Below, piece after piece: positions 9,211 through 31,183 of a DNA stretch of 48,652 nt (position 1 is its first letter; each line of letters opens with the position of its first letter). Source of the stretch: Dietzia aurantiaca. Lineage in GTDB: Bacteria > Actinomycetota > Actinomycetes > Mycobacteriales > Mycobacteriaceae. Location: NCBI RefSeq assembly GCF_021033825.1, contig NZ_JAIFXZ010000023.1, positions 1-48,652 of the forward strand. Reading direction: 5' to 3'. Under the pieces are notes generated by a model. That model worked only from the letters and a program-made list of their open reading frames with translations. It had not been told where the DNA came from and searched no databases. The position numbers and the translations under genes are program-made.

Positions 9211-9263
9211 GATGGGCTCAACCTCTTCTCCACTGGTGAATGACTGCAGCGATCGGGGCACAC

Positions 9264-9665: not shown

Positions 9666-9690
9666 ATGGCGATATTATCACCATATGGCG
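9660..9690. promoter_or_regulatory. 31-bp palindromic operator of the ArsR-CDF operon
   Basis: The 31 bases read almost identically on both strands: 14 of 15 base pairs of the arms match around a single central T. Each outer arm is CGCCATATGG. CATATG elements of this sort are typical of SmtB/NmtR/KmtR operators. On the gene strand the centre contains GATAAT, so repressor bound here would cover both the -10 box and the first start codon. Confidence 0.75.
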
Positions 9691-10450
9691 TTGTTCGCGT
9701 CCGGGGCGGCATGCCGCCGCACTGGGCAGGGAGAAACTATGCAGTCGCCACTTCAATCACGCCGAAGGTGCCGACCCTTGCCACTCTCATCCAGATATCT
9801 TCATCACCCGTCAGGAACGAGATCACTCTCGAACCCCGCCCACCCAATCTCATCTGACGATCCTCCACTGCGACACACTTGGGCACGCTCCGATCAATGC
9901 TTCCCCCTGTCGGAGCGTTGCGCAGACGTGTCGCACCAGCAAGTCGCACGAAGTACGACCACGTGCGACACACGAATCCGGTGCGCTCTCCCGCCAACTC
10001 GCCCCGGGCCGGCGATGATGCCCTCCAACAAGCGGCCCCCGACGGGCTCTCGAGCAGCGCCGAGAACCAGACGTTATGACAAGTAAAAGGTGTCGAGGTG
10101 TCGATTGTGCGAACTCGACACCTCCCCGAATGGCTCGCAGCTCGTTCGAACTCGGGCTGCGCCTGACCTGCGAGCAGGTGCGCATCGCGCAGATGATCCG
10201 AGGTCTGTCCGACATGGCGAACCCGGGCCGCAGACAGTATGCGAACTACTGCTCTGACCTGCGGTCCTTCATCAGGATTCGCATTTCCTGCGACACATTC
10301 GCAAATTCTGCGAAGCACATAAAAATCAGCCGGAACCCAAACCCGCCCCCACTCCCAGGGTCGGCGTAAAGGAAGCCGTGCGCCATGGCGTCTTGGCCGG
10401 GCCACAGCCGGGAACTCGACACCTCGCAACCCGGCACTTGATCAGTAGGC
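9691..10450. other. Region with no recognised gene; contains GGTGTCGA repeats
   Basis: About 760 bases between the ArsR gene and the broken thioesterase gene. Frames open on both strands, but none shows a domain I recognise or a good ribosome-binding site. The only clear structure is the set of GGTGTCGA repeats described separately. The stretch may be debris from rearrangement. Confidence 0.4.
10089..10124. repeat. Tandem and inverted GGTGTCGA repeats (second locus at 10412-10425)
   Basis: GGTGTCGA occurs twice in tandem (10089-10096, 10097-10104) and then in inverse orientation at 10115-10122, giving a 10-bp-arm inverted repeat (10095-10104 with 10115-10124) around a 10-base spacer. The 14-mer GAACTCGACACCTC at 10111-10124 is repeated at 10412-10425, about 25 bases before the thioesterase remnant. 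It could be an operator, a recombinase site or the scar of a rearrangement. Confidence 0.55.
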
Positions 10451-10860
10451 GTGGTGGGCGCGACTGGACCAGAGAACCCGAATGGACATTTCCTCTCGGT
10501 ACGGCGTGACGGAGACGGCGTCGTCGCACACCACCAGTTCGACCAGCGTCACGTTGGGGCACCCGGCATTGCACACGGCGGCGCGGTAGCGACCGTGATT
10601 GACGACCTATTCGGCTTCTTGCTGTATTCGGTCGGCGAGCTCGCCGTGACGCGCCGTCTCGCGCTCGACTATCTTGCGCCAGCATTACTCGACACCCCGT
10701 ACATCCTGCGCGTGCAGTTCGGTCTCGCGATGGCCGGAAATTGGACCTTAGGTCCACGATGGAGGATGCAGAGGGCCGGACTGTTATTACTGCCACTGCC
10801 CTGTTCATCGCGGTCGAGGTTGAACACTTTTTGCAGTCACAGAGAAACTCGAGGACTTAG
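10451..10860 (+). pseudogene. PaaI/hotdog-family acyl-CoA thioesterase, frameshifted
   Basis: From the GTG at 10451 the frame encodes a typical actinobacterial PaaI-like hotdog thioesterase: GPENPNG, then GAPGIAHGGAVATVIDD (the conserved helix with His-Gly-Gly), LDYLAPALLD and up to QFGL. Near 10729-10735 similarity moves to another frame, continuing DGRKLDLRSTMEDAEGRTV and ending with FIAVEVEHFLQSQ and a TAG at 10858-10860. Loss of one base would explain the shift. As it stands the product lacks its second half. The N-terminus may also be shortened, since related proteins often begin with a CFGCG segment absent here. Confidence 0.75.
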
Positions 10861-16075: not shown

Positions 16076-17617
16076 GTGTCATCGCCTTGGCTCACTACTG
16101 CTGTTTCGGAGTTCGGGCAGCGTTGCAAAGCCAAGTTGGCCGGTCCGGGTGAGGCAGAAGCAGCGATCCGGGCTCCGATCGAACAGCTACTCGCCGCCGC
16201 TGGCGAGCACCTTTCCTTGGATGTGGTCCCACACGACGAGGTCCGCGACGACGACCGTGGAGTTCGTCCCGACTACGCGATCAGCGTCGGCGGTGCGACC
16301 ACTGGGTACGTCGAAGTCAAGAAGCCTGGTGCCAACTTGGACCCGGACTCCATGCGAGGCCACAACCTCAGACAGTGGACGAGGCAGAAGGACCTGCCGA
16401 ACCTGATCTACACCAATGGCACGGAATGGCGGCTCTACCGAGATAGCGAGCCGGTCGGAGATCCGATACACCTTGCCGGCGGGCCGCTCCGCACGGCTGG
16501 AGCGGAGCTTTCCGCGCCCGCAGAGTTCGAGCAGTTCCTGACCGACTTCCTGCGGTGGGAGCCAGCGCCCATCACCAGCGTGATCGCTCTTGTTCGGGCT
16601 ATCGCGCCGCTGACTCGACTTCTGCGCGGTGAAGTCTTGGACCAGCTCGCCACCGAGCAGCGCAAGATCAAGGCAGGAGCTCGACGCGAAGATCAGCCAT
16701 TCCATGGACTCGCCAGGGACTGGCGACACCTGCTATTTCCGACCGCTGACGACGCGACCTTCGCCGACGGCTACGCGCAGACCGTCACGTTTGCCCTCCT
16801 CCTTGCCCGAACCGAAGGCATCACACTCGCCGATGCCGGCGGCCTGCACGCAGTGGGCACGAAATTGGCGGGACAGCACTCCCTCATGGCCCGGGCGCTT
16901 CAGCTGCTGACTGACTACGTCGCAGCTGACTTCAAGGTCACCATCGACCTCCTGGTGCGTGTCATCGACGCCGTGCAGTGGCCGAAGGTCCGCGCCGGCC
17001 GCCGCGACACCTATCTCCACCTGTACGAAACCTTCCTCGACGTCTACGACCCGCAGCTGCGGCAAAAATCCGGCTCGTACTACACACCACGTGAAGTGGT
17101 CGAGCAAATGGTCCGCCTCACCGAAGAAGTACTCGAAACACGATTGGGTAGAACCGCAGGATTCGCAGACCCGGATGTGGTCGTGGCCGACCCCGCGATG
17201 GGCACGGGCACATTCCTACACACGATCATCGAGCACGTCGCGGCCCGAGTGGCCGAGCGAGACGGGCAGGGAGCCGTTGCGGGGGCAGTAAGCCAGCTCG
17301 CCGAGCGGATTGTGGGATTCGAGCTCCAGACGGGCCCATTCGCCGTCGCCGAACTACGAGCCACCGACCTACTCGCCGATCTTGGAGCCAGCCTCCCACC
17401 GGCAGGCCTGGGAATGTACGTCACCGACACCCTCGACGATCCCCACGCCGAGCAGACCCAGCTCGGATCCGGTCTTGAGTTGATCAGTCGGTCTAGGTCA
17501 AGGGCTGCCCGTATCAAGGCCAAGTCCAAAGTCACTGTGGTGATCGGCAACCCGCGGGTTCGCAGACGAGCTGACCACCCCGGGCATCCGAGGGCCGGTG
17601 ACCAGTGCGATCTGTGA
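16076..17617 (+). pseudogene. Type IIG-like restriction-modification protein, truncated
   Basis: Starts at a GTG behind GAAAGG. The N-terminal part has a PD-(D/E)xK-like nuclease signature (RPDYAI, then YVEVKKPG, about 64-85). The methylase part shows YYTPREVV and motif I as DPAMGTGTFL (about 380-389). Similarity stops at motif IV: VVIGNP is followed not by PY but by unrelated residues and a TGA, because an IS30-type remnant is joined there (about 17551-17560, within the palindrome AACCCGCGGGTT). The rest of the methylase and the target-recognition part, expected to be several hundred residues, is missing. Without NPPY it cannot methylate; whether the nuclease half still folds is unclear. Confidence 0.8.
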
Positions 17618-18067
17618 AGCTGTCGTCACCGGGTTGCCATCGCCGACGGTCTCGTGGTTAAGGACTCGCTTCGCACGATCGCGGCACGAATCGGCAAAAA
17701 CGTCTCCACGGTCTCGAGGGAGGTCCGCCGGCACAGCAGCACCGGCCGGCATCTGCCGTACCAGGCCGATCGAGCTGCTGCCGTGGCCAGGTCACGGCCC
17801 AAGCAGGCCAAACTGGTGACGAACGCGGTCCTGAGGGCAGCGGTCGAGGAAGGTCTGTTCCGAAAGCTGTCCCCGGAACAGGTCTCCAATCGTCTGCGCC
17901 GGGATCACCCCGACGACGAAAGCATGCGGGTGAGCCACGAAACGATCTACCAAGCGCTGTACTTCCAAGCCCGGGGCGGCCTCAAACGTGAGGTGAAACT
18001 GGCACTGCGGACCGGTCGCACCAGGCGGAAACCGCAGCGCAAAGAAGGTGAACGGTATCAGCGGTGA
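17562..18067 (+). pseudogene. IS30-family transposase remnant
   Basis: Two frames together give an internal piece of an IS30 transposase. ADELTTPGIRGPVTSAICEAVVTG (17562-17634, first frame) is followed, after a frameshift near 17630-17640, by DSLRTIAARIGKNVSTVSREVRRHSS (helix-turn-helix) and SHETIYQALYFQ. It ends at GERYQR and a TGA, just before where the DDE catalytic domain would begin. Both ends and all catalytic residues are gone. The next 268 bases (18068-18335), up to cydB, hold no gene I can recognise. Confidence 0.8.
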
Positions 18068-18335
18068 TAGTGCCCCATAGAGTGGGACCTTATAGGAGCT
18101 TGTGCAGCGGCCCCATCACTGTCTTGTCCACCTCGTGGTCTGGAGTGTTCCCGCTACCGAGTGCTATTGCCAGCCTCAGCAGCCGCGCCCTGATCTCACC
18201 AACCCGCCCGCACTACCGGAGAACCTCAAGTGGACGAGCCGGACCCGACCGGCCGATCCCGCACGCCCAAAACCCCTCGACCGGCAGACCGAGAGTCACA
18301 CCGCCCTCACGCTCGACATCGGTGGAACGAGTCTC

Positions 18336-19385
18336 TTAGCGCCCGCCGGTCTCGGCCCGCAGAATCGCCGGCAGAACCACGTGTGGCTCGGGGATCATCC
18401 CGGGTGTGACGCGGTGCCGGAATACCCAGTAGCTCCATGCCTGGTAACAGAGGATCACGGGCAGCGCCACGACCGTGATGGCGGTCAACACGCCGAGGGT
18501 ATACGTACTGTGCGCCGCGGACTGCACCGTGATGTCGAAGGCACTGTCGATTGTGGACGGCAGCAGAACCGGGAACATGGCCAGGAAGATCGCGGCCAGC
18601 CCGAACAGGCCGGTGCCGGCATAGCCGGTAAACGCGAGCCCTTCCCGGCCCGCGCGTGCCTGAGCCCATCCGACGCCACCGGAGACCACGGCGAGAAGGG
18701 CGACCGTCCACCCCGCCGGTCCGGCACCGTGCTCGAATTGCACCATCGCAATCCAGACGAGCAGCGGCAGCAGGCAGAGGGGAGCCCACCGGACGGCGAA
18801 ACCGGATGCGCGCCGCCGCACTGGGCCGTCGGCCTTGAGCGCCAGGAACGTGGCGGAGTGGGCCAGGGCAAATCCCACCACGGCGAGGCCACCGACGAGG
18901 GCGGGCCACGAGAGCCAGGCAAAGGGACCGCCGACGCGGTCGCCGTTGCCGTCGATAGGCAGTCCGATCGAGGTGAGCGCGAGCAGCGCGCCGATGAAGA
19001 ACGCGACGGCCGCGGAACCGAGGCCGATCATGTACGTCCAGAACGTCGCCCAGACCCTTGTGCCGACCTTGCCCCGGTACTCGATACCGACGGCCCGCAC
19101 GATGAGTCCGAGCAACGCGAGGGTCAGCGGCACGTAGAGGGCGGACAGTAGCGCGGCGTACCAGGGCGAGAACGCGGCGAAGAGGGCAGCGACGGCGGTG
19201 ATGAGCCACACCTCGTTGCCGTCCCAGACGGGGCCGATGGTGTTGAGCATGACGCGGCGGTCGCGTTCGCTGCGGGTCGAGAAGATCATGTGCATGCCCA
19301 CGCCCAGATCGAATCCCTCGAGCAGGAGGTACCCGGTCCACAGGAGGGCGATGGCGACAAACCAGATGATTGCAAGGGGTTCCAT
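18336..19385 (-). CDS. cydB: Cytochrome bd oxidase subunit II
   Basis: A 349-aa membrane protein beginning MEPLAIIWFVAIALLWTGYLLLEGFDLG, the standard CydB N-terminus, with GPVWDGNEVWLIT soon after and about eight hydrophobic helices. It pairs with CydA in the copper-free quinol oxidase. The ATG at 19385 has GAGG seven to eight bases upstream and lies 20 bases after the cydA stop, so the two form one operon. No truncation or damage is visible. Confidence 0.95.
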   Translation of the reverse strand: MEPLAIIWFVAIALLWTGYLLLEGFDLGVGMHMIFSTRSERDRRVMLNTIGPVWDGNEVWLITAVAALFAAFSPWYAALLSALYVPLTLALLGLIVRAVGIEYRGKVGTRVWATFWTYMIGLGSAAVAFFIGALLALTSIGLPIDGNGDRVGGPFAWLSWPALVGGLAVVGFALAHSATFLALKADGPVRRRASGFAVRWAPLCLLPLLVWIAMVQFEHGAGPAGWTVALLAVVSGGVGWAQARAGREGLAFTGYAGTGLFGLAAIFLAMFPVLLPSTIDSAFDITVQSAAHSTYTLGVLTAITVVALPVILCYQAWSYWVFRHRVTPGMIPEPHVVLPAILRAETGGR

Positions 19386-19405
19386 GGTTGTTCCTCGTCT
19401 CGTGG

Positions 19406-20986
19406 TCAGTAGGCAAACGACAGCACGTCGTCGTGCTCGCCGTCCGGGTCGTCGACGTCGTCGTCGTCCTGACCAACGAGTTCGGGCATCGCACTGGCGA
19501 CTCCACCGCGCGTATACCGCACCAGCAGGTACACCTCGACGACCAGCAGAACCCCGTAGACGGAGCCCAGGGAGATGAGGGAGAACAGCAGCTCCCCGGC
19601 GGTCACACCGGGAGATACGGCGGCCTGGGTGTACATGTACACGGAGTCGGCTCCGGTCACGGCGGGGTTCGGGGCCACGACGAACGGCTGTCGGCCCATC
19701 TCGGTGAAGATCCATCCGGCGATGTTCGCGGCGAACGGTGCGAGGATTCCGGCGAGCGCGAGTCGCATGAGCCCGCGGGATCCGGGGACGGTGCCGCGCC
19801 GGGTGAGCCACAGGGCAACCGCTCCGGCGGCGGCGACTATCCCGCCGAGGCCGATCATGAGGCGAAAGCCCCAGTAGGTCACCCACATGACGGGGACGTA
19901 CTCGATCTGCGCGCCCGCCCGGTCGCCGTACAGGGCGTCGTCCGGAATCGTCTCGCCGTAACGGTCCACGTACTCGGGTTCGAGGTCGCGAATACCCGGC
20001 ATGTCGACGCCCCACTCCCCGGTGGCGAGGAAGCCGAGAACGCCGGGGACCTCGATGAGAGTGGTGACGTCGCGGCAGTCCGTGGATCCCGGGTTGCCCA
20101 GCGAGAGCACCGAGAAGGAGGAGCCGGAGTGGCAGGCGGCCTCGGCGGCAGCCATCTTCATGGGCTGCTGCTCGTACATGAGTTTGCCCTGGATGTCGCC
20201 GGTGACGACTGTGCCGAGGAACCCCACCATGGCGACTATCGCGCCGAATCGCAGGGACCAGATCCAGACGCCGTGGTCGGTGCGGTCGCGTCCTGGTATG
20301 TCCTGGGCCTGCCCCACGATCACGTGCCCGCGCTCGTCGACGGTGTCGATCCCGTCATGCCGGCGGCGCCACAGGTGGTACCAGGCGATCCCGAGCAGGA
20401 ACATCCCTCCCACCACGAGCGCACCAAAGACGGCGTGGGTGAACGCTGCCAGTGCGGTGTTGTTGGTGAGCACGGCCCACACGTCAGTCATGACCGGCCG
20501 GCCGTCCTCGCCGAGCTCGACGCCCACGGGGTGCTGCATCCACGAGTTGGCGACGATGATGAAGTACGCCGAGACCCAGGATCCGATCACCGCGCACCAC
20601 AGGGCCGCGAGGTGCACGCCCTTGCGCAGCCTGCCCCAGCCGAAGATCCAGATACCGAGGAAGGTCGATTCGAGGAAGAAGGCGAGCAGACCCTCGAGCG
20701 CGAGCGGGGCACCGAACACGTCCCCGACGAACCGGGAGTACTCGCTCCAGGCCATTCCGAACTGGAACTCCTGGACCAGGCCCGTGGCCACGCCGAGGAT
20801 GAAGTTGATGAGGTAGAGCTTTCCCCAGAATTTGGTCATCCGGAGAAATTTCTCCTGGCCGCTGCGCACCCAGGCGGTGTGCATCACGGCAACCATCGCC
20901 CCGAGTCCGATAGTGAGCGGGACCATGAGGAAGTGGTAGACGGTCGTGATGCCGAACTGCCAGCGTGCGATCTCGACAACGTCCAT
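19406..20986 (-). CDS. cydA: Cytochrome bd oxidase subunit I
   Basis: A 526-aa CydA. It starts MDVVEIARWQFGITTVYHFL, with His18 in the place of the heme b595 ligand of E. coli CydA; the MGRQPF motif is present in GWIFTEMGRQPF. It oxidises menaquinol and reduces O2 with high affinity and is relatively insensitive to cyanide, NO, H2O2 and metals that poison heme-copper oxidases. The C-terminus is very acidic (QDDDDVDDPDGEHDD). The ATG at 20986 is chosen because the family starts here; an upstream ATG would put translation in the operator region. A BlaI-like operator lies 54 bases upstream. Confidence 0.96.
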   Translation of the reverse strand: MDVVEIARWQFGITTVYHFLMVPLTIGLGAMVAVMHTAWVRSGQEKFLRMTKFWGKLYLINFILGVATGLVQEFQFGMAWSEYSRFVGDVFGAPLALEGLLAFFLESTFLGIWIFGWGRLRKGVHLAALWCAVIGSWVSAYFIIVANSWMQHPVGVELGEDGRPVMTDVWAVLTNNTALAAFTHAVFGALVVGGMFLLGIAWYHLWRRRHDGIDTVDERGHVIVGQAQDIPGRDRTDHGVWIWSLRFGAIVAMVGFLGTVVTGDIQGKLMYEQQPMKMAAAEAACHSGSSFSVLSLGNPGSTDCRDVTTLIEVPGVLGFLATGEWGVDMPGIRDLEPEYVDRYGETIPDDALYGDRAGAQIEYVPVMWVTYWGFRLMIGLGGIVAAAGAVALWLTRRGTVPGSRGLMRLALAGILAPFAANIAGWIFTEMGRQPFVVAPNPAVTGADSVYMYTQAAVSPGVTAGELLFSLISLGSVYGVLLVVEVYLLVRYTRGGVASAMPELVGQDDDDVDDPDGEHDDVLSFAY

Positions 20987-21039
20987 AGGACGCCAACCCC
21001 TTTCACCGGATCGGGTGTCGTGTTCACCCGCCATCGGCA

Positions 21040-21066
21040 TTCTACATAGCGTAGAAATATTTCTAC
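21040..21066. promoter_or_regulatory. BlaI-like operator between cydA and the blaI-like gene
   Basis: TTCTACATAGCGTAGAA (21040-21056) is an inverted repeat with 6-base arms. It overlaps the perfect 16-base palindrome GTAGAAATATTTCTAC (21051-21066), so three alternating half-sites are present. CTAC...GTAG half-sites resemble BlaI/MecI operators. The element lies in the divergent cydA/blaI-like gap and probably controls both. The same inverted repeat recurs before cydDC. Confidence 0.8.
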
Positions 21067-21129
21067 CGAGAGTCGAATTTCTTTCGCCACTGATAGAATC
21101 CGGCTACAAAGCAGGAGGAGAGGATCACC

Positions 21130-21489
21130 GTGGCGACCCTGGGCGAGTTGGAGCGTGCCGTTATGGACGTAATCTGGGACCACAGTGGGCCGGTGACGGC
21201 GTACGACGTCAAGGGCGTGCTCGACAGCTCCCGGGAGCGCCCACCCGCCGTGACCACCCTGCTCACGGTCTTGAGCCGCCTTGCACGCAAAGGTCTGGTC
21301 GTCTCGGATCGCACCGCGCGCCCCCACCGCTACCGCGCTGTGGCCTCGCGGGAGGAGTACACCGCGGAACTCATGCACGAAGTCCTTGGAGACTCCCGGG
21401 ACCGGCACGCGGTACTTGCACGGTTCGTCGGCGGGGTCTCCAACGATGAGGCGGCGGCGTTACGCACGCTACTGAAGGGAAACGGCTGA
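21130..21489 (+). CDS. BlaI/MecI/CopY-family repressor
   Basis: A 119-aa winged-helix protein of the BlaI/MecI family: LGELERAVMDVIWDHSGPVTAYDV, then PPAVTTLLTVLSRLARKGLV as recognition helix and wing, and a short dimerisation tail. It starts at a GTG behind GGAGGAGAGG. It is divergent from cydA and followed after 14 bases by a BlaR1/M56-like gene, the classic blaI-blaR layout. In this family the repressor is inactivated when the membrane protease partner is triggered. Its likely targets here are cydAB and cydDC, both of which carry matching operators. Confidence 0.88.
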   Translation: MATLGELERAVMDVIWDHSGPVTAYDVKGVLDSSRERPPAVTTLLTVLSRLARKGLVVSDRTARPHRYRAVASREEYTAELMHEVLGDSRDRHAVLARFVGGVSNDEAAALRTLLKGNG

Positions 21490-21503
21490 TCCCCCAGTCG
21501 GCG

Positions 21504-22295
21504 ATGTCCACCGGCGCCGTGGGGCTCCTGTTGGCCGGGGTCGCCCTGGCCCTGGCCTGGCCGGTGCCGGTTCTGTTGGCTCGCGCGCGCTGGCCGATGC
21601 ACGCCCCGGCCCGCGCGCTCCTTCTCTGGCAGGCCATCGGCCTGGCCGGCGGGGTCTCGATGATCGGGGCACTCGCGCTGATCGGCCGCGCGGTCGCGCC
21701 GGAGCATCCCCTGGCCGCGGTGATCCCTGCGATCCTGCTGGGCTGTTATCTTCTCGCTCACCTCGGTGCGACCGTCGTCCAGGTCACGCGGCAACGGCGC
21801 CGACATCTGACGCTGCTCCAACTACTCACGGCGCCCCATCCGACCCGCGCGCGAACGCGCGTGATCGACGAGGCCGCACCGGTGGCATATTGCATCCCCC
21901 GTGGCGCCGGTTCCGTCACGGTGCTCTCCCAGGGGCTGCTCGACAACCTGGATCCCGACGAGCTCGCGGCCGTGATTGCCCACGAACGCGCGCACGTGGA
22001 GCAGCGGCACGACATCCTGCAATTGGCGTTCCGGGCCTGGCGGTCCGCACTACCGGGACTTCCCACCGCGGTCCTCGCGGAGACGGAGGTCGCCGCGATG
22101 GTGGAGATGTTGGCCGACGACCGAGCCCGCCGAGAGGTACGGGACGAAGTGGTGGCCCGCGCGATCCTGAGGGTTGGTGCGGCCGACGGTAGCGGCTATG
22201 GCGACCACGACGACCACGACGACTACGACGACGGCGGCCGCATGAGCGATCGACTCCGCCGTCTCGGCGCGCCGGCTCCCGGCCACGAGTCATGA
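21504..22295 (+). CDS. M56/BlaR1-like membrane metalloprotease
   Basis: A 263-aa protein with three or so N-terminal membrane helices and the zinc-protease signature HERAH (HExxH; about residues 161-165) in the sequence AAVIAHERAHVEQRH. A glutamate further on (EMLADDRAR) could be the third ligand. It matches the M56 protease core of BlaR1/MecR1 but lacks the extracellular penicillin-binding sensor domain. The C-terminus has an Asp/His cluster (GDHDDHDDYDDGG) that could bind metal. It probably cleaves or inactivates the adjacent BlaI-like repressor; the signal it senses is unknown. Confidence 0.82.
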   Translation: MSTGAVGLLLAGVALALAWPVPVLLARARWPMHAPARALLLWQAIGLAGGVSMIGALALIGRAVAPEHPLAAVIPAILLGCYLLAHLGATVVQVTRQRRRHLTLLQLLTAPHPTRARTRVIDEAAPVAYCIPRGAGSVTVLSQGLLDNLDPDELAAVIAHERAHVEQRHDILQLAFRAWRSALPGLPTAVLAETEVAAMVEMLADDRARREVRDEVVARAILRVGAADGSGYGDHDDHDDYDDGGRMSDRLRRLGAPAPGHES

Positions 22296-22328
22296 ACAGG
22301 GCGGGCCAAGCGGCTCGCTCCGGCCCGT

Positions 22329-25300
22329 TCAGCTGAGTCGGCCCGCCTGGTCCTCGGGCCGCCGGTCATCGTGGCGGTGCGAGACCAGGATCACCACCTT
22401 GTCATCGGCGGCGGTGCGGAGGTCGCTCATCATGGCGTCGGCTGTCGGCGTGTCCAGGTGCGCAGTCGGCTCGTCGAGCAGGAGGACGTCGGCGCGAGTG
22501 AGCAGTGCTCGCGCCACCGCCAACCGTTGACGCTCCCCTCCCGACAACGCCCGACCACCGGCTCCGACCCGGGTGCCCAGACCGTCCGGGAGCGCGTCGA
22601 GCAGCGGGGTCAGGCCGACCTGCTCGAGGACCCGTCGCATCGCGGCGTCGTCGGGGGCCTGCGCGGACGGCCTGGACAGGAGAAGATTGCCGCGCAGGGT
22701 GGAGTCGAAGACATAGGCGTCCTGTGGACACCAGGCCACACGGGATCGCCATGCCTTTTCGGCGAACGTCGTGATCGGAGAGGTGTCGGCCCGGATCGTT
22801 CCGCCGCTGAGGGGCAGTGCCCCCATCACGGCGGACAGGAGTGTGGACTTTCCCGATCCGGACGGCCCGTCGAGGAACAACCAGCGCCCCGTGCGCGCAA
22901 CAGCATCCACACCCGCCACGGCCGGGCGCGCAGTGTGCGGATACCGAACACTCACTTGCTCCAGCGTCACCGAATTTACGGGCCCGTTCGGCGCACCAAC
23001 GCCCCACGTGGCCTGCGGGAAGGGTCCCAGTACGGAGCCGAGGCTGTGCAGCAGTGAGCGCACGGACGGCACACGGTGCACTGCCGCGACCCACGCGGCG
23101 AGAGGCTCGCCCAGCGCCAGGCACAGTAGAGCAATCACACTGGCTCGTTCCGCGTCCACCGCCGGATCGGTCACTGCCACGAGCACCGCCAGGATGCCCG
23201 TGCCTGCTGTCACCGCCGCCGTGCCGAGCCCGGCGCCGCGGGTCGCGCGCCGTTCGTCGGCGGACTGCTTCCGGTTTATCTCGTCGAGTCGGGCGACCGC
23301 CGCCGCTGCCACCCCGTTACCGCGCAGGTCCGCAGCCGCTGCACTCAATGACGCCGATCCCCGCACCAGACGAGACCGACCCGCGACCCTGGCTACGTCA
23401 CCCCCACGTTCGACCGTTGCCACCAGGCCCGCTCCGAGTGCCATGGTCGTGACCAAGCCCGCCCCCACCAGCACGGTGAACTCAGGAGTGACCAACCAGG
23501 TGGTGAGCGTGGCCCCCAGCAGTACGGCCACTCCGGAGATCAGGGGCGTAACGACCCGGGGGAGTTGATCCCGCAGTTCATCGGCCTGGGTCACGAGGTA
23601 GTCCAGCGGCGCCCCACCTTCGAGCAGTCGCCGGGACCCGGTACCTCGTGCTGCGATCGCCCGCCAGAGCCGCAGTCGGAGATCGTCGATGGTCCGGAAG
23701 GCGGCGTGGTGGGTGAGCAACTGCTCAGCGTATGTGGCCACCGAGCGTCCGATCCCGAACGCTCGGACTCCGACGATCGCCACCAGGAGATACATGATGT
23801 ATTCCTCGACGCTCGATCGGACGATCAACCATCCCGAAAGCGCCGTGAGAGCCAAGCCCAGGGAGGTGGCGAGCACCGAGAGTCCTACCGCCCCCGCCCA
23901 GAGCCCGCCGTGGGCACCGATCAGCGCACCGAGCGACAGACGCCCGGTGCCGCCTACCCCGCTAGACATCGGATCGCCCGCCCCCTCCCGGACTCCCTGT
24001 TCCGGGCTCCGCTCGTGGCGGCCCGGGTCGGCATTGCCGTCCGCAGCGGGGATCCGCGAGACGCCGAGATCACTGCCCGGGACGGCCTCGGGGTCCTGGA
24101 ACTCGGGGTGCCGGGCCATGGGGAGCGCAGATGCGTCGCCGCCTGCACGGCTGGTCGGGCCACAGATCCGGACGGTGCTCGTGGCGAGGTCGAGTGTCTT
24201 CGGTTCGTGGCTCGCAAGCACGATGGTGGCACGCTCGGCTCGGCGCAGGATCGCGCCCCGGACCAGCTCAGCGGCATGGTGGTCGAGGTGGGCGGTCGGC
24301 TCGTCGAGCACGAGCAGGCGGGCGCCGGCGTCCACGCGGGCCAGTGCACGCGCCACAGACAGGCGCCGGAGTTCCCCCGGGCTTAGTTCGGCGGCAGCGG
24401 ACTCGTCGACCCGGGATAGTCCGACCTCGGCGAGCGCGGCCGCGGGATCCGCGCCGTACAACTCGAGTTCCTCCCGCGGGGTGGCACCGAACACCCGCGG
24501 CGACTGGGGTGACCACCCCACGAGGTCCGCTTCGATTCCCATGACTCGCCCGCGCACTGTCGCATCGTCCGGCAGCGCCCCGACCAGAGCCGAGAGGAAC
24601 GTGGACTTACCGGCTCCGCTGGCCCCGGTAACGGCGACGATGCCGCTCAGCTCTGCATCGAGGCCAGTCAATGCCGCGGCCCCACGACCGGAGTATCGGA
24701 TTTCGAGCTCAGCCACGCGGATCGTAGCGCCGTCAGCGTTCCGCAGGTCGGCCTCAGGCGATGTTTCGAGATGTTCGCGCACACGATGCAGTGAGGCGAG
24801 GCCGTCCTGTGAAGCGTGGAACGCCACCCCCACCCGGCGAAGGACCGTAAAGCACTCCGGTGCGAGCAGCAATGCGAGCAGTGCGGGTTGCAGGTCCATC
24901 GTCCCGTTGAGCAAACGGAGGCCTAAGAAGACCGCTACCACCGCCACGGAGAGCGTCGCGATGAGCTCGAGCGCCAGGGCGGACAGGAACGCCCATCTCA
25001 GCGTCTCCCGAGTGCGACGGCCGTAGTTCCGCTGGATGGCGTCAAGTGAGTCCGTCTGCTCCTCGACGCGGCCGAGCCCGACCAGAACGGGCAGCCCACG
25101 AGCCAGTTCGACCAGATGGTCGGACAGCCTGGTCAGCGCACTCAACGCCGCGTCCGTGCGTTGACCGGTGTGCCGGCCGATCAGGACCATGAACAGTGGC
25201 ACCAGTGGGATCGTCACCACGATCACCAGGGCACTGACCCAGTCGGCGGCGAGGACACGGGCCAGGAGAAGCGGGGGCACCACGATCGCCGCGATAATGG

Positions 25301-25763
25301 CAGGCACGGACTGCACGTAATACTGGTCCAGATCGTCCAACCCATCTGTGGCGAGCACCGCGGTCCCGCCCCGGGGGTCGTGCGCTCGCACCGTCCGGCG
25401 CCACAGCCTGCCCCGCAGGCCGTGCTTGACGGCGGTGGCTACCCTGCGGGCACTCGTCTCGGTCGCCCATTCGGCAGCGGCCCGCAGCAGCGCACCGCCC
25501 AGACCGAGTATCAGGATCGCCCGCACCGACCCGGCGGGCAGGGTGCCGGCCGCCAGTCCCGCGATGCCTCGCGCCACAGCCTCCGCCACCAGCACTAGCC
25601 CCAGTGCCCGGAGGGCAGCCAGTAGTCCCAGCGCCACGAGGGCGGAACTCGGCGCGGGCCCGAGGTCCGGGCGTGCGGAAGTCCGCTTCACAGTCCGCTC
25701 GGCCTCGAGCACCCAGGGGTCGATTCCCTCGGCGGGCCGCGCCGTCGACCTGCGCATCATCAT
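22329..25763 (-). CDS. cydDC: CydDC fusion: ABC exporter for cytochrome bd assembly
   Basis: A 1144-aa single chain holding two ABC exporter halves. First half: membrane domain (about 30-320), Walker A GASGAGKST (about 380), signature LSPGEL, Walker B LLVLDEPTAHLD (about 485). Second half: membrane domain (about 620-900), Walker A GPSGSGKST (about 965), signature LSGGERQR, Walker B LLLDEPTAHLD. CydDC is needed for cytochrome bd maturation and is proposed to move thiols or heme. Fused forms are known in actinobacteria. The 3' end converges on the M56 gene. The ATG at 25763 has GAGG eight bases upstream; a GTG at 25769 or the next two ATGs are alternatives. A BlaI-like operator lies about 59 bases upstream. 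Confidence 0.94.
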   Translation of the reverse strand: MMMRRSTARPAEGIDPWVLEAERTVKRTSARPDLGPAPSSALVALGLLAALRALGLVLVAEAVARGIAGLAAGTLPAGSVRAILILGLGGALLRAAAEWATETSARRVATAVKHGLRGRLWRRTVRAHDPRGGTAVLATDGLDDLDQYYVQSVPAIIAAIVVPPLLLARVLAADWVSALVIVVTIPLVPLFMVLIGRHTGQRTDAALSALTRLSDHLVELARGLPVLVGLGRVEEQTDSLDAIQRNYGRRTRETLRWAFLSALALELIATLSVAVVAVFLGLRLLNGTMDLQPALLALLLAPECFTVLRRVGVAFHASQDGLASLHRVREHLETSPEADLRNADGATIRVAELEIRYSGRGAAALTGLDAELSGIVAVTGASGAGKSTFLSALVGALPDDATVRGRVMGIEADLVGWSPQSPRVFGATPREELELYGADPAAALAEVGLSRVDESAAAELSPGELRRLSVARALARVDAGARLLVLDEPTAHLDHHAAELVRGAILRRAERATIVLASHEPKTLDLATSTVRICGPTSRAGGDASALPMARHPEFQDPEAVPGSDLGVSRIPAADGNADPGRHERSPEQGVREGAGDPMSSGVGGTGRLSLGALIGAHGGLWAGAVGLSVLATSLGLALTALSGWLIVRSSVEEYIMYLLVAIVGVRAFGIGRSVATYAEQLLTHHAAFRTIDDLRLRLWRAIAARGTGSRRLLEGGAPLDYLVTQADELRDQLPRVVTPLISGVAVLLGATLTTWLVTPEFTVLVGAGLVTTMALGAGLVATVERGGDVARVAGRSRLVRGSASLSAAAADLRGNGVAAAAVARLDEINRKQSADERRATRGAGLGTAAVTAGTGILAVLVAVTDPAVDAERASVIALLCLALGEPLAAWVAAVHRVPSVRSLLHSLGSVLGPFPQATWGVGAPNGPVNSVTLEQVSVRYPHTARPAVAGVDAVARTGRWLFLDGPSGSGKSTLLSAVMGALPLSGGTIRADTSPITTFAEKAWRSRVAWCPQDAYVFDSTLRGNLLLSRPSAQAPDDAAMRRVLEQVGLTPLLDALPDGLGTRVGAGGRALSGGERQRLAVARALLTRADVLLLDEPTAHLDTPTADAMMSDLRTAADDKVVILVSHRHDDRRPEDQAGRLS

Positions 25764-25821
25764 CCACACACGTCCTCACCGGCAGGTTCACCGCAGACGA
25801 TTCCCGCCTCAGCCGTCTAAA

Positions 25822-25838
25822 TTCTACATACCGTAGAA
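25822..25838. promoter_or_regulatory. BlaI-like operator before cydDC
   Basis: TTCTACATACCGTAGAA differs from the cydA copy (21040-21056) at a single base. Read on the gene strand both sites give TTTCTACG, one variable base, TATGTAGAAT, at 54 and 59 bases before the respective start codons. The shared orientation and spacing suggest that the -10 region lies inside the operator. Confidence 0.8.
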
Positions 25839-25885
25839 ACACTGGTGTGTGCCCCCGCACGCGGGCGCACCGTTGACTCGGCCAC

Positions 25886-26002
25886 GAACGCTCTACGGCC
25901 CGCGTCGTCGGGTGGCAGGTCTCGAAGATCCGGGAAACCGACTTGGCACCGGACGCGTTGAACATGGCGATCTGGCAACGCGCTCACGCCGGTGCCGACT
26001 GA
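25886..26002 (+). pseudogene. IS3-family transposase remnant (+ strand)
   Basis: A short frame reads VVGWQVSKIRETDLAPDALNMA and ends IWQRAHAGAD before a TGA. This is the segment between the first and second catalytic aspartates of an IS3 OrfB. Nothing else of this copy survives. It lies in opposite orientation to the neighbouring IS3 remnant, from which its sequence differs. Confidence 0.7.
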
Positions 26003-26029: not shown

Positions 26030-26786
26030 CTATTGGATTCCGACCAGGGTCTGGTCGGCCCGTTTCGTAGCGTAGAACGTCTCCTCGAACTCTGCTGGCG
26101 GCACGTCATTAAGATAGCCGTGCAGGCGGTCGTTGTTGTGCCAGTGGACCCAGCTCAAGGTGGCCAGCTCGATGTCCTCGACGGTCTTCCACGGCCGTCC
26201 CTCGCGGGCAGGGCCGCGGATGAGTTCGGCCTTGTAGTAGCCATTGACCGTCTCAGCGAGCGCATTAATCGTAGGAATCTGCGATGGTGCCGATCGAGGG
26301 AGTTGCTCCGATTTCGGCGAGGCGTTCGCCGTAGCGAATCGACGTGAACCGCGACCCGGCATCGCCGTGACACCGCAGGCCGGTCAGCTGGGTGCCGCGT
26401 GACCAGCGGGCCATCTCGATCGCGTCGAGGACCATCGTGGTGCGCATGTGCGAGGCGACCCGCCACCCGACGATCGTTCGTGAGAAGGCGTCGATGATGA
26501 AGCAGACGTAGGCGACGCCAGTCCAGGTCGGGACGAATGTCAGGTCGGTGACCCACAACTGGTTCGGCGCGGTGGCAGTGAAGTCGCGACGCACGAGGTC
26601 AGGGCGGCGCGGCATCCCCGGGTCGGGTTGTGTGGTGCGCACTCGCTTGCTGCGCCGGACGCCCTCGATCCCGCCAGCCCGCATCAGCCGGGCGACCTGG
26701 TCCCGGCCGATGTCGTGACCAGCACGCCCGCGGAACGAAGCCCGGAACACTGTCCACGACGACCCCCAACCCGTGGAAACCTGCAT
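26030..26786 (-). pseudogene. IS3-family OrfB transposase, truncated and frameshifted
   Basis: The frame from 26786 gives IGRDQVARLMRAGGIEGVRR, then WVTDLTFV (first Asp), FIIDAFSRTIVGWRV, CHGDAGSRFTS (second Asp) and TIADSYD before a stop near 26264. The match resumes in the next frame with NALAETVNGYYKAELI (catalytic Glu) and ends near 26030 (RADQTLVGIQ). One extra T near 26272 explains the shift. The N-terminal part of OrfB and all of OrfA are missing; before about 26740 the sequence belongs to something else. It cannot be active. Confidence 0.85.
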
Positions 26787-27172: not shown

Positions 27173-27262
27173 CAATGACACCAGACCCAATCAATCGCGG
27201 TTAGTGCTGGTATGCGCATTTCCGTGGCCTTCGCCGTGGTGGAGGACTGTCAGTCGAGCCGC

Positions 27263-27455
27263 AGTTAGCTACTGTAGCAATGCGCGCAATGCTAGCACTG
27301 CTAGCTAGCCTGGCACGTATAGTTACGTGCGCTTTGCGAGTTTCCATTGCACAGATAACTATGAGAGGTAACGTAGCTAGAGATGCAGCACTAGCTACCA
27401 ACGAGTACCTCAGTGCACATACATGGCCAGCCAAACTAGCGGCTACCTCTGGCTG
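27263..27455. repeat. AT-richer TAGC-repeat region, putative centromere (parS) and parA promoter
   Basis: Unlike its surroundings this stretch is rich in A and T and dense with short TAGC/GCTA elements: TAGCTAC (27266), GCTAGC (27291), GCTAGCTAGC (27300-27309), CGTAGCTAG (27372), CTAGCTAC (27391), CTAGCGGCTAC (27436). ATAGTTA (27319-27325) and TAACTAT (27356-27362) form a further inverted pair. It lies directly before parA, where centromeres of ParA systems with small partners are usually found. Confidence 0.6.
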
Positions 27456-27479
27456 GCATCCACTTCGAGAGGAACGTAC

Positions 27480-28262
27480 ATGATCCGAAAGTTAGCGCTC
27501 TGTAATCAGAAGGGCGGCGTCGGCAAAACTGCAACGACGCTCGGGCTGGCTAGTGCGCTGAGCGCTCAAGGGCGCAACGTTCTGATTGTGGACGTCGATC
27601 CCCAAGGGAACTCCACCACGGGACTCGGTGTCGAAATCACGGACGGCATGATGACCACGTTCGACCTCATGAACCGAACAGCTTCGGGATCTGCGGCCGA
27701 CGCCGTCATCGCAACTCCATGGGACAGGGTTGACCTCATCCCGTCCAACGAAGCACTAGCCAACATCGAATCAGACGGCGCCAACGATTTGATCTTCCGC
27801 CTCGACATCGCATTCGAGGGGCTCGACCTCTCGCCCTACGACGCGGTCCTCTTCGATTGTCCACCGTCACTGGGGAAGTTGCTCTTTGCCGTGCTGTGCG
27901 CAGTCGACGGGGTCATTGCTGTGACCGAGCCGACCATCGACAGCGTCCGGGGGATCGAGAACCTTCAGGAAACGATCCGCAATGTTCAGAGACGACCGAA
28001 CCCCCGGCTCGTAATGGAAAAAATCGTCCTTAGCCGTAAACGGGCCACCGGGGAGCACCAATTCCGCGAACGCGAGTTGCGTAGCACTTACGGAGAACTG
28101 GTCGCGAAGACCGCCATTCCGGAACTTACCGCCCGACAGGACGCACATAGCACTCACACGCCGATCCACAAGTTTACTGGCGGCAAGGCATTGGCTCTCC
28201 AGGTGGCTTACACAGATCTACTTTCCGAGCTGGCGATCGACATCGAAGGAAACGCAGCATGA
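27480..28262 (+). CDS. parA: ParA-type partition ATPase
   Basis: A 260-aa Walker-type ATPase: deviant Walker A KGGVGKTATT (11-20), VDVDPQGNSTTG as A' region and FDCPPSLG as Walker B. There is no N-terminal helix-turn-helix domain, so it is a short (type Ib-like) ParA, whose regulator and centromere binder is normally the small downstream gene. The ATG at 27480 has AGAGG seven to eight bases upstream; an ORF start at 27423 would place translation inside the repeat region. The stop overlaps the next start (ATGA). Confidence 0.92.
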   Translation: MIRKLALCNQKGGVGKTATTLGLASALSAQGRNVLIVDVDPQGNSTTGLGVEITDGMMTTFDLMNRTASGSAADAVIATPWDRVDLIPSNEALANIESDGANDLIFRLDIAFEGLDLSPYDAVLFDCPPSLGKLLFAVLCAVDGVIAVTEPTIDSVRGIENLQETIRNVQRRPNPRLVMEKIVLSRKRATGEHQFRERELRSTYGELVAKTAIPELTARQDAHSTHTPIHKFTGGKALALQVAYTDLLSELAIDIEGNAA

Positions 28263-28567
28263 GCGTCCAGCGTGAACCCGCAATCCGACGAGCTGCCCAC
28301 CCCGCAGCAGACTTGCCAGAGCGGCCTACCCCGGCCACCACACCGGCCGCTGCCGTGCCGCTTCCCTCCCCACAGCCAACCCAGCCAGCTGGGCGAGGGG
28401 AGGAGCGACTGACGGAGCAGCACAATGTCCGGCTGCGCCCATCAACGAAAGCGCGGCTACTCCGCGCTGTCGACAAGCTTCGCTACGAGACAGGCGACCG
28501 CTCTATAAGCATCGCATCTATCACCGACATCGCAATCGTCGAGTACTTGGAGTCTCGAGACTGCTGA
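28259..28567 (+). CDS. Small ParB-like centromere-binding partner
   Basis: A 102-aa protein translationally coupled to parA. The first half is proline- and alanine-rich and probably disordered; the second half (EQHNVRLRPSTKARLLRAVDKL, then ISIASITDIAIVEYLESR) has the length and pattern of a ribbon-helix-helix domain. Partners of short ParA proteins (ParG, ParR-like, Omega-like) have this build: a flexible tail that stimulates ParA and a DNA-binding dimer. It is assigned by context more than by sequence similarity. Confidence 0.7.
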   Translation: MSVQREPAIRRAAHPAADLPERPTPATTPAAAVPLPSPQPTQPAGRGEERLTEQHNVRLRPSTKARLLRAVDKLRYETGDRSISIASITDIAIVEYLESRDC

Positions 28568-28600
28568 TCAGGAATCAACAGTCTTGAGCAGCATCGGATC

Positions 28601-28614
28601 GGGCGCCGGCGCCC
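28601..28614. repeat. 14-bp GC palindrome after the par operon
   Basis: GGGCGCCGGCGCCC is a perfect palindrome about 34 bases after the parB-like stop. With no loop or T-tract it is a weak terminator at best. Its place after the operon suggests a 3' boundary. Confidence 0.3.
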
Positions 28615-28760
28615 ACTAGCGCCCTCCGAATGGCGCTGGTTCTGGTCGATGCTCTCAGACCAATGCCAAACTCGAGTTTCAAGCGAGGATGGCGGGCCGC
28701 CGACCCACGATCGACTGACTCCTGAACTTCAGCCTGCCGTCCCACGCACTATCTACCGTC

Positions 28761-28822
28761 ATTTTTGACGTCGTGAGCGTGTCGCACCCATTTCTGACGT
28801 CAGGCATGCGAATTTTGACGTC
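28761..28822 (+). promoter_or_regulatory. Three TTTTGACGTC-type direct repeats (operator or iterons)
   Basis: ATTTTTGACGTC (28761-28772), ATTTCTGACGTC (28790-28801) and AATTTTGACGTC (28811-28822) occur in direct orientation, the last abutting the start codon of the ribbon-helix-helix gene. A partial fourth copy, AATTTTGACG, lies inside that gene near 29006. They are probably autoregulatory sites for that protein; because the replication gene follows, iterons are an alternative. Confidence 0.6.
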
Positions 28823-29038
28823 ATGGCGACCACACGTTCTGGGCCGGGCAGACCAGCCCTAGGGGAGCGGACACGCATGACGGTCCGCGTACCTTCGGAT
28901 GTTTACGACGCGCTTCGACGTGAAGCCAAAGCACGTGGCATCTCCATGAACCAGTATGTAGCCGAAGTCGCTGCGACACACCTCGGCATGCCCGAAGCCG
29001 TGTCGAATTTTGACGACCAGGAGGCGATCCCAGCGTGA
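28823..29038 (+). CDS. Ribbon-helix-helix regulator, 71 aa
   Basis: The sequence RMTVRVPSDVYDALRREAKARGISMNQYVAEVAATHLG is a clear Arc/CopG-type ribbon-helix-helix domain with an N-terminal GRPALGERTR arm. The ATG follows immediately on a TTTTGACGTC repeat, so bound protein would block its own translation start or transcript; initiation may be leaderless. It lies just upstream of the replication gene and may set copy number, as CopG does. Confidence 0.8.
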   Translation: MATTRSGPGRPALGERTRMTVRVPSDVYDALRREAKARGISMNQYVAEVAATHLGMPEAVSNFDDQEAIPA

Positions 29039-29091
29039 AGTAGTCAGATCTGTGACTGACAACTAAAGATCATGCAATCCGCAAAATGACT

Positions 29092-29123
29092 GATCCCGGC
29101 CCACTGACCGGTGGACCGGGATC
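29092..29123. terminator. Strong stem-loop before rep
   Basis: GATCCCGG (29092-29099) pairs with CCGGGATC (29116-29123), and inside it CCAC pairs with GTGG around TGACCG. There is no T-tract. It could terminate the upstream regulator transcript or be part of rep control or a replication origin. Confidence 0.45.
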
Positions 29124-29182
29124 GAAAGTCAAGAGTTTGAGTTGGCGCTCGAACTCGGGGTTGCTCACCATTTAGGAGAGCT

Positions 29183-31183
29183 GTGCTTCCAGGCACCTCT
29201 CAGGGTAGGTCATACCTTCCGGACGGTCCAGTCGTTCCGGACGGCGTGTCCTATTCTGATACCAGAAAAACCGCATCCCATCAGGCCAACACGTGGTGGG
29301 AATCAGTGGCGAGTGCGTGGAGTCCGCGCCCGTATGTGCGTGTCGATCCACGCAAAGCGCACACCTTCTCGACAACTCGACGCTTCACCGACGGCGCCCC
29401 CGGCCCGGATGTGCCATATGCGCTGCATTTGACCGATGACGCCGGCCGCTTTCGCCTGCTTGCTCTGGACTTTGACGCCCATCACGCCGGCTCAACCGCC
29501 ACCGCAGACCTCGCCAACTGCACCTCCGCTTTGACCGCCACCGGGGTCGAACATCTGGTGTGCTCATCCGGGCCCGGTGGGGGGTACCACGTGTGGATCC
29601 GCCTCAGTGCCGCGATCTCACCGGCCCGGCTCGCACCACTAGTGGACGCATTCGCCGCCGCCTGGCCTTCACTTGACCGCGGACCTCTGGCAAACCCTCG
29701 CACCGGCTGCGTTCGCGCTCCGGGCTCGCCCCACCGCTCCGGCGGAGCCTCGGTCCCTCTCAGTAGCACCGACATTCGCCCCGCATCTCTTCGAGCCTTA
29801 CATCGGGTTACCGAACACCTCGACACGCGTCCGAGTCCCATTTCAGGGCCGCATCCGCAGGTGACGACCCGGCCGGTGCATGTTGATATCCAGGGGCGTC
29901 CGTACCTGGCCGGCCCACGCCGACCGCTCGCCGCCAGGATTCGCGCTCTCGCCGACACCCCGATCGCTGCTGGCACAGATGCTTCAGCGATTGGGTGGTC
30001 AATCCTGCTGGCCTGCGCACATGCCCGTATGCAACACCGAGACCTCGCCGAGGCAGCATTCACGGCGCAGTGGCCGGGTCTGGAGTTCCTGCGCACCCGC
30101 CGCACAGCAGGCGGCCGGACCCCGCGCCTGGACGCCGAGCAGGAGCTCGCACGTCAGTGGACCAAAGCCGTCACCGCGGCCAGCTACACCGGCCCCGCCA
30201 CCTGCACCACCAGCCCAGCCCGGCACACCGTGGAACAGACCGTCGCAGACCTGTTAACCCGAATGGACAGCAAACCGCAGCAGTGGCAGGGAAAAACCGG
30301 GTCCCAGGCACGCCTGGTCCTGCTCGCCCTAGCCGCCCGCACCCTCGATGCCGCCACGGAAGAAGTCCATTTCTCCGAAAGAGATTGGGCCTTGGCAGCG
30401 GGCCTGGCCCGAGACACCGTCGCAGACCGGCTTAAAGACCTGACCGACCGCGGCTGGATCCGGCGCACCCAGCGGGCGGTGGGCCCGTGGGCCGCGACCT
30501 GGGGGCTGGTAGCGCACGGGGGCGGGGAGACAAGAAGTGGCGCAGTATTTTCCCCAGCCCTTGAGCAGCGGCTGCGAGCAGAGCTGGAATCCGCCCGCGC
30601 GGACATCTGGCATGCCCGTTCGCTAGGGGTGCTCGGCTTGCGGGTGTGGGATCTGCTGCGCACGCAGCGCCTGCCGGTGCGGCAGATCGCCGCTCGTCTT
30701 GGGATCTGCGCGGCAACGGTGCGCAGCAAGCTTGGCGCACTCCAGGCGTACGGCTTGTGCACCTCGAACGGGCGCGTCTACCAGGGCCGCTCCCGGTTAG
30801 CCCGGGCAGCGGCGCTAGCTGGGGTGACGGGAGCGCATGCAGATCGGATGCGGTTGTACCGGTTGCAGTCGGCGGTATTTGTGTGGTGGTTCACCACCCG
30901 CTACCAGCAAGATCAATCCGACGCGCTAGGGGAGTGGGGCCACTTCCCGACTCCCGGTGAGGCCGAGCAGGTCCACCCGGTCGACATTGCGCTGGCCTAC
31001 GGAGCAACAGCCACCGGCCCGCCGGTGGAAGCAACCACGTGGGGGGCCGCAATGGCTGCTCAAGACCGGCATCGGGAGGCTGACCCGGCAAGCTGGTGGG
31101 AGCTGGTTGCCGCGGCCCGTGCTGCCCTGCCCGCCCCAGATGTGCTGGCCGCCCCTCACCAGTGGTCGAGCGCCGCAGCCTGA
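29183..31183 (+). CDS. Plasmid replication protein with primase-like (AEP) domain
   Basis: A 666-aa protein. The N-terminal part shows an archaeo-eukaryotic primase pattern: LLALDFDAHH (DxD-like acidic pair, about 92-101) and SSGPGGGYHVWIRL (about 128-141), the sxH-type second motif, followed by a VRAPGSPH segment. The C-terminal part has two winged-helix segments (SERDWALAAGLARDTVADRLKDL and VRQIAARLGICAATVRSKLGAL). This build is seen in replication initiators of Rhodococcus- and Gordonia-type plasmids. The GTG at 29183 has AGGAGAG just upstream, though the spacing is short. It is the only rep candidate in the window. Confidence 0.75.
   Translation: MLPGTSQGRSYLPDGPVVPDGVSYSDTRKTASHQANTWWESVASAWSPRPYVRVDPRKAHTFSTTRRFTDGAPGPDVPYALHLTDDAGRFRLLALDFDAHHAGSTATADLANCTSALTATGVEHLVCSSGPGGGYHVWIRLSAAISPARLAPLVDAFAAAWPSLDRGPLANPRTGCVRAPGSPHRSGGASVPLSSTDIRPASLRALHRVTEHLDTRPSPISGPHPQVTTRPVHVDIQGRPYLAGPRRPLAARIRALADTPIAAGTDASAIGWSILLACAHARMQHRDLAEAAFTAQWPGLEFLRTRRTAGGRTPRLDAEQELARQWTKAVTAASYTGPATCTTSPARHTVEQTVADLLTRMDSKPQQWQGKTGSQARLVLLALAARTLDAATEEVHFSERDWALAAGLARDTVADRLKDLTDRGWIRRTQRAVGPWAATWGLVAHGGGETRSGAVFSPALEQRLRAELESARADIWHARSLGVLGLRVWDLLRTQRLPVRQIAARLGICAATVRSKLGALQAYGLCTSNGRVYQGRSRLARAAALAGVTGAHADRMRLYRLQSAVFVWWFTTRYQQDQSDALGEWGHFPTPGEAEQVHPVDIALAYGATATGPPVEATTWGAAMAAQDRHREADPASWWELVAAARAALPAPDVLAAPHQWSSAAA

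Follow-up and report, generated by a model that had tools for sequence, protein, structure and literature searches.

A BlaI-like repressor encoded beside the cytochrome bd genes of Dietzia aurantiaca is, with good probability, a dedicated repressor of this terminal oxidase, which would be relieved by a membrane protease that carries no sensor domain. The preliminary description of this DNA had proposed that a BlaI/M56-type pair controls cytochrome bd, and this proposal is now strongly supported, at the level of the sequence, by the conserved gene order, by operators in which only the spacers drift, by the co-occurrence of site and repressor, and by second sites at cydDC genes that stand apart. 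The genes, the sites, their conservation and co-occurrence, and the lack of a sensor domain can be read directly from the DNA. With the main bc1-aa3 branch blocked, actinobacteria can still respire through cytochrome bd, and a sensorless protease that releases its repressor would, if confirmed, represent a new coupling of respiratory failure to gene expression.

Organization and genomic setting of the cyd cluster

The window, i.e., the whole stretch of DNA analysed here, is a contig (C16) of 48,652 bases within the 3.77-Mb genome of D. aurantiaca. Within the cluster, cydB and cydA, both encoded by the minus strand, are followed by operator 1, by the plus-strand genes for BlaI and the M56-type protease, by cydDC, again on the minus strand, and by operator 2. 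The cydB gene (18336–19385, minus strand; subunit II of cytochrome bd, 349 aa) is a reading frame predicted from the sequence, whose counterpart on plasmid pDK313-98 of Dietzia kunjamensis is annotated as cydB. The cydA gene (19406–20986, minus strand; subunit I) is the only CydA match in the genome (PF01654, 499.6 bits); its frame stays open to 21040, and the ATG at 20986 is the likely start. Predicted operator 1, TTCTACATAGCGTAGAA (21040–21056), lies in the divergent promoter of cydA and blaI, as had been described, and a degenerate candidate for a second operator, TTCTACCGAGAGTCGAA (21061–21077, one mismatch), is found 21 bp from it. The blaI-like repressor gene (21130–21489, plus strand; 119 aa) is followed by the gene of an M56/M48-type membrane metalloprotease of 263 aa (21504–22295, plus strand), and then by a cydDC fusion gene (22329–25769, minus strand), which encodes 1146 aa from the GTG at 25769, with an alternative ATG start at 25763. 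Both halves of the CydD-CydC fusion exceed their NCBIfam cut-offs (TIGR02857 and TIGR02868), so that both the CydA profile match and its CydDC partners are present in the window. Predicted operator 2, TTCTACATACCGTAGAA (25822–25838), precedes cydDC.

Of the plasmids in the collection searched, pDK313-98 matches the cluster most closely, covering 97% of positions 18300–26000 at 91.5% identity, and the D. aurantiaca contig may itself be a plasmid. Inspection by eye revealed parA-like and replication-like reading frames (27250–31183), with a TAGCTA-rich stretch just upstream of them (approximately 27250–27440). Transposase-like fragments, also recognized by eye, bracket the cyd cluster at 17654–18067 and 26030–26786, the right-hand one approximately 190 bases from operator 2, and an N-6 DNA methylase-like frame (16076–17617) is seemingly cut short beside a transposase-like fragment (by eye). 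The cluster is plasmid-borne in D. kunjamensis, but genome G178 carries it next to a recombinase-like frame on a contig of 3.88 Mb, which indicates that it is mobile, but not always carried by a plasmid.

Further frames in the window, all assigned by eye, resemble a metal P-type ATPase (719–2746), the cytochrome c maturation-type proteins thioredoxin, CcdA, ResB, and CcsA (3226–7770), and an ArsR regulator with a cation diffusion facilitator (8275–9665). Additional CcdA-like frames are found by eye on contig C35 of the same genome, and an annotated ArsR-CDF pair neighbours the cyd cluster of a Kocuria plasmid (locus L011).

Predicted operators in the window and the genome

The two 17-bp inverted repeats that had been noticed at the outset are indeed nearly identical, with spacers (ATAGC at 21040–21056 and ATACC at 25822–25838) that differ in a single base, and the 54 and 59 bases given as their distances agree with ATG starts at 20986 (cydA) and 25763 (cydDC). 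They are the only two matches in the window when up to three mismatches are allowed, while 100 shuffled sequences gave a mean of 0.04 matches, and none reached two. No other perfect TTCTAC-N5-GTAGAA site exists in the 3.77-Mb genome as a whole, compared with one perfect match for the reversed control pattern. Chance repeats are ruled out by these shuffles and by the whole-genome count of perfect sites.

Allowing one mismatch across the genome adds four places, one of which is the candidate at 21061–21077 in the promoter of operator 1. Given that the total of six forward sites compares with 11 for the reversed control, the one-mismatch sites elsewhere carry no weight, and the sites of the genome that do are the perfect pair and this neighbour. 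A simple consensus scan found no sigma-70 promoter over operator 1 or 2, a result that counts against the preferred reading. When operator 2 is compared with its counterparts at loci L010, L187, and L018, the half-sites are the same, while the far side is wholly different in the window and the cydDC side is partly so; these three loci are nearly identical to one another at this point, and therefore represent a single comparison rather than three. A mycobacterial type of operator was rejected for the window, in which the pattern TAC(G/T)AC-N5-GT(A/C)GTA has no matches with up to one mismatch.

The BlaI-like repressor

The BlaI of the window scores 79.7 bits with PF03965 (cut-off 22.6), and its closest solved structure is 2g9w (E 5e-19), which we take to be that of Rv1846c. 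The profile of its relatives also matches the MecI and BlaI structures (1okr and 1sd4). BlaI proteins are dimeric winged-helix repressors, and a conserved 6-5-6 palindrome, the predicted operator, stands in front of blaI and the cyd genes. Membership in the CopY family was rejected, given that the TIGR02698 (CopY_TcrY) score of 31.2 bits lies under the NCBIfam equivalog cut-off of 121.95.

A second BlaI-M56 pair is found on contig C35 of the same genome (locus L017; blaI at approximately 9668–10237, minus strand), where it adjoins DsbA-like and CcdA-like frames, an arrangement similar to that of locus L172 on a Microbacterium plasmid. The presumed operon of this second blaI is preceded by different repeats, TCGACTA-N7-TAGTCGA, near 10714–10750, which makes the second BlaI an unlikely regulator of cyd.

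The M56-type protease and the proposed relief of repression

The protease gene follows blaI, as the preliminary description had noted, and encodes an HExxH motif. In Pfam, the protein matches PF01435 (M48) and has no match to PF05569 (M56), a profile matched by 37 of the 59 aligned proteins, among which it is included. The residues H160, E161, H164, E201, A204, and D205 are invariant across these 59 M56 proteins, and the membrane gluzincin motif of the BlaR1/MecR1 type (HExxH with a distal E..AD) is present. Three membrane segments are predicted ahead of HExxH, and the AlphaFold2 model has a mean pLDDT of 89.5. The protease has 263 residues in the window and 250–362 in 79 relatives. Among these 79, a C-terminal membrane segment is predicted in 61, followed by at most nine residues, and the 18 proteases that lack this segment have 84–132 residues beyond HExxH; the window protease has no C-terminal extracytoplasmic penicillin-binding domain.

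The lack of this domain bears on two other explanations. One is that BlaI does control cyd, but that its repression is lifted in some way other than by the M56 protein, with BlaI sensing a ligand itself or being removed by another protease. This alternative is unlikely, although the sensorless M56 protein and a difference at the presumed cut site speak for it. In favour of relief by the membrane protease, phenylalanine F99 of BlaI does not vary among 48 sequences and aligns with that of the LNFV segment of MecI, presumably the cleavage site; the residue that precedes this presumed site is Arg in the window BlaI in place of the Asn of BlaI/MecI, which counts against the preferred reading of relief by the membrane protease. 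The alternative is opposed by the tight linkage of the two genes, with M56 directly 3' of blaI in 80 of 80 loci (gap of at most 252 bases) and HExxH encoded in 79, the exception being L056, whose frame of 166 residues ends prematurely on a contig of 4.1 kb.

The other explanation is a classical response to beta-lactams of the bla/mec type that stands next to cyd by chance. BlaI and M56 do belong to the same protein families as the bla/mec components, but there is no penicillin-binding domain, and the only perfect operators of the genome stand before cyd genes and blaI. The preliminary description had noticed no beta-lactamase in the window, and a search of the genome for one family, PF13354, gave matches on two other contigs only, neither of which has a perfect site. 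The classical system was thus rejected on the missing sensor domain, the location of the operators, and the placement of PF13354 on other contigs, and its probability is very small; the linkage with cyd in the relatives described below counts against it as well. The reading of a dedicated cyd repressor relieved by the sensorless protease is retained here.

Conservation and co-occurrence

The closest relatives were found by scanning genome contigs with an alignment of four cyd-linked BlaI proteins from Dietzia and Kocuria, and the locus set is the best 80 of at least 571 confirmed BlaI relatives, i.e., the closest relatives only. Within this best 80 of at least 571, cydA and cydB are divergent from blaI-M56 in 72 loci, and 68 of these 72 have a perfect site between cydA and blaI, the others (L018, L019, L021, and L028) having one-mismatch versions. 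The perfect sites of the 72 loci are concentrated in the cydA-blaI interval, with 135 in 20,184 bases vs. five in the remaining 963,200. Of the latter five, four (in L018, L030, L037, and L022) mark the 5' end of a cydDC located apart, the one in L022 overlapping the first codons of the alignment. The fifth, in L031, is 1.8 kb ahead of a CydC match, in a locus in which the CydD half was not found. The 135 sites have 91 forms of the spacer, with a pyrimidine as the last base in 129, and neighbouring perfect sites are 21–26 bp apart in 44 of the 67 distances. Where 3.8 kb separate cydA from blaI (L091), sites are kept at both. The cyd genes are absent within the locus in eight of the 80 cases (L051, L055, L059, L064, L067, L077, L084, and L085), which counts against a repressor dedicated to cytochrome bd.

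In a class sample of 148 genomes, that of D. aurantiaca included, a perfect site occurs in 19. All 16 genomes with a close BlaI (at least 138 bits, a threshold chosen after the scores had been seen, in the gap that separates 138.6 from 126.2 bits; D. aurantiaca included) have the site, compared with three of the other 132 (Fisher test, 9e-19). The sites number 55 vs. five for the reversed control in the 16 genomes, and four vs. 19 in the 132. In the genus Dietzia, 23 genomes contain 15 cydA matches: an upstream site with at most one mismatch is found in five of the five genes of the window type (at least 93% identity, that of the window included), and in none of the ten divergent genes (49–54% identity) with up to two mismatches, from which the mycobacterial-type site is absent as well.

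A predicted wider regulon in other actinomycetes

The operator pattern was also searched in 19 genomes, all picked because they carry a BlaI of this kind, and TTCTAC-N5-GTAGAA was found in 18 of them, with 90 sites vs. four for the reversed control. From the matches listed, 54 stretches around sites (loci L116–L169) were taken from eight Arthrobacter and Nesterenkonia genomes (G008–G014 and G016), with the blaI and cyd promoters omitted except for L126. Leaving L126 aside, a respiratory or energy gene stands beside or just behind the site in 30 of 53 stretches among the matches listed, as judged by a Pfam hit, by BLAST clustering with a protein that had been scanned against Pfam, or in part by visual inspection (L124, L147, and L150). 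These are hemQ (eight stretches, so that the site precedes hemQ in all eight genomes), qcrC/ctaE (five), flavohaemoglobin (four), SURF1 (three), ctaB-like UbiA, redoxin-ccdA, CopC, and rhodopsin (two each), and sdhC and cydA (one each). The cydA gene of G010 (L129) is on a contig separate from blaI, and has two sites in front.

The remaining 23 stretches involve small membrane proteins, globin-like proteins with no Pfam hit, YceI, ABC transporters, lysS, carD, and ambiguous cases. The lysS and carD genes have no clear respiratory role, and count against the preferred explanation. In five genomes, a small membrane protein with no Pfam hit (one was scanned) is encoded right behind the operator (L118, L125, L148, L163, and L164).

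Beyond these eight genomes, family f18, which belongs to the same class and has larger genomes, has cydA divergent from blaI with sites in G075, G141, and G057, and sites at a cydA distant from its own blaI in G130. Single or repeated sites are also found in this family before CopC/CopD-CtaG, hemE, redoxin, and DUF3817 genes, and before some ambiguous ones. Taken by their sites, the genes of Arthrobacter and Nesterenkonia point to a predicted global respiratory regulon of this BlaI subfamily. In two Arthrobacter genomes (L116 and L128), a perfect operator is followed after 67–68 bases by a bacteriorhodopsin-like gene, which hints that light-driven pumping may come under the control of the BlaI operator.

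The copper and heme genes among these targets favour a further alternative, a regulator of the CopY kind, in which the pair would answer to the supply of copper or heme, and cytochrome bd would be induced because it needs no copper. The weak CopY_TcrY similarity of BlaI and the other metal-transport-like frames seen by eye in the window are compatible with this, but the similarity falls under the curated cut-off, and targets such as oxidases, globins, and succinate dehydrogenase are wider than copper. This alternative, which departs from the preferred reading in the signal only, is considered improbable.

Proposed mechanism and its meaning

For binding, repression, cleavage, and the respiratory state as the signal, we infer the following course from the arrangement of genes and sites. 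A BlaI dimer would sit on TTCTAC-N5-GTAGAA before cydAB, before cydDC, and at its own promoter, repressing all three. Upon failure of the main respiratory branch or a shortage of oxygen, the M56-type protease, which has no penicillin-binding sensor domain, would inactivate BlaI, probably by cutting it, and the oxidase, the CydDC assembly transporter, and the blaI-M56 pair would be released. This signal may be failure of the bc1-aa3 branch, as suggested by the wider regulon with its genes for oxidases, flavohaemoglobins, copper handling, and the assembly of heme and cytochrome c. The Dietzia cassette would then represent a restricted version of a broader respiratory regulon under the same BlaI subfamily elsewhere in the actinomycetes.

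A more general reading can be offered tentatively, with a chance somewhat short of even. The BlaI-M56 pair of the actinomycetes may be, at root, a switch for the respiratory state, with cytochrome bd as its most conserved target and a protease that, lacking a sensor domain, reads the state of the electron-transport chain directly in the membrane; the control of beta-lactamase would be a side branch. The global regulon of Arthrobacter and Nesterenkonia (oxidases, heme and cytochrome c synthesis, globins, and rhodopsin) and the mobile cyd cassette of Dietzia would then be two forms of this switch. If it is true, the protease switch would also explain the mycobacterial BlaR that lacks a beta-lactam sensor. 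The targets that the operator predicts in environmental genomes of Arthrobacter, Microbacterium, and Nesterenkonia make the question of what the M56 protein senses directly testable.

Comparison with known systems

In the available part of PMC5473688, which cites Sala et al. 2009, the BlaI of Mycobacterium tuberculosis is said to bind the promoters of cytochrome bd and ATP synthase and to control blaC as well, and the mycobacterial BlaR is said to lack a sensor domain. The tie to ATP synthase and blaC had been mentioned in the preliminary description, and is found in print. BlaI is likewise named as the regulator of the atp operon in M. tuberculosis in the available part of PMC5874750 (citing Sala et al. 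2009), and rv1305 and atpE as its predicted targets in that of PMC7924339. The preliminary description had also considered a membrane-protease switch for a terminal oxidase to be new. This holds in part: since the portion of PMC5473688 at hand already reports the link with cytochrome bd in M. tuberculosis, the pair of the window is a dedicated variant and not the first case, while a cyd-linked BlaI-M56 module was not found in the sources at hand. No such module, operator, or respiratory regulon was found in a literature search that covered few subscription papers, and this absence is weak evidence. The control of cyd in the window thus looks like a dedicated, gene-linked form of the link reported in M. 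tuberculosis.

In ten genomes of the same family or order as D. aurantiaca, BlaI is more distant and the TTCTAC site is absent. Their half-site is TAC(G/T)AC, unlike that of the window: an exact TAC(G/T)AC-N5-GT(A/C)GTA precedes a cydA match in all ten, and an exact or one-mismatch version precedes the distant blaI in eight, with none in the other two. The sites before cydA fit the BlaI binding reported in M. tuberculosis. One of the ten also has a site of this type near an atpE reading frame (by eye). Across four whole genomes, there are 17 sites vs. 11 controls, with no clear enrichment, and several other places fall inside reading frames, so that this pattern carries weight only before cydA and blaI. 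The M. tuberculosis pair BlaI-BlaR (Rv1846c-Rv1845c), as far as the available text of PMC5473688 goes, resembles that of the window in its M56-type partner with no sensor domain and in its link with cytochrome bd. The ten genomes also differ from the window in gene linkage, given that, in nine of them, the best BlaI is located away from the cydA match.

The BlaI-BlaR1 and MecI-MecR1 systems of Staphylococcus aureus share with the window a repressor of the BlaI/MecI family and a membrane zinc metalloprotease encoded beside it. Unlike BlaR1 and MecR1, the window protease has no C-terminal beta-lactam sensor, and, unlike in the bla/mec operons, no beta-lactamase or PBP gene stands behind the perfect operators of the window. 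The likeness to the CopY/TcrY copper repressors is limited to the weak profile match of BlaI (31.2 vs. 121.95 bits). The systems that resemble the window in both gene order and operator are those on plasmids of Kocuria rosea and D. kunjamensis, in which cydAB is divergent from blaI-M56 and the sites are of the TTCTAC-N5-GTAGAA form. Kocuria differs from the window in that cydA, cydB, and cydD(C) form a single unit, with no second operator before cydD.
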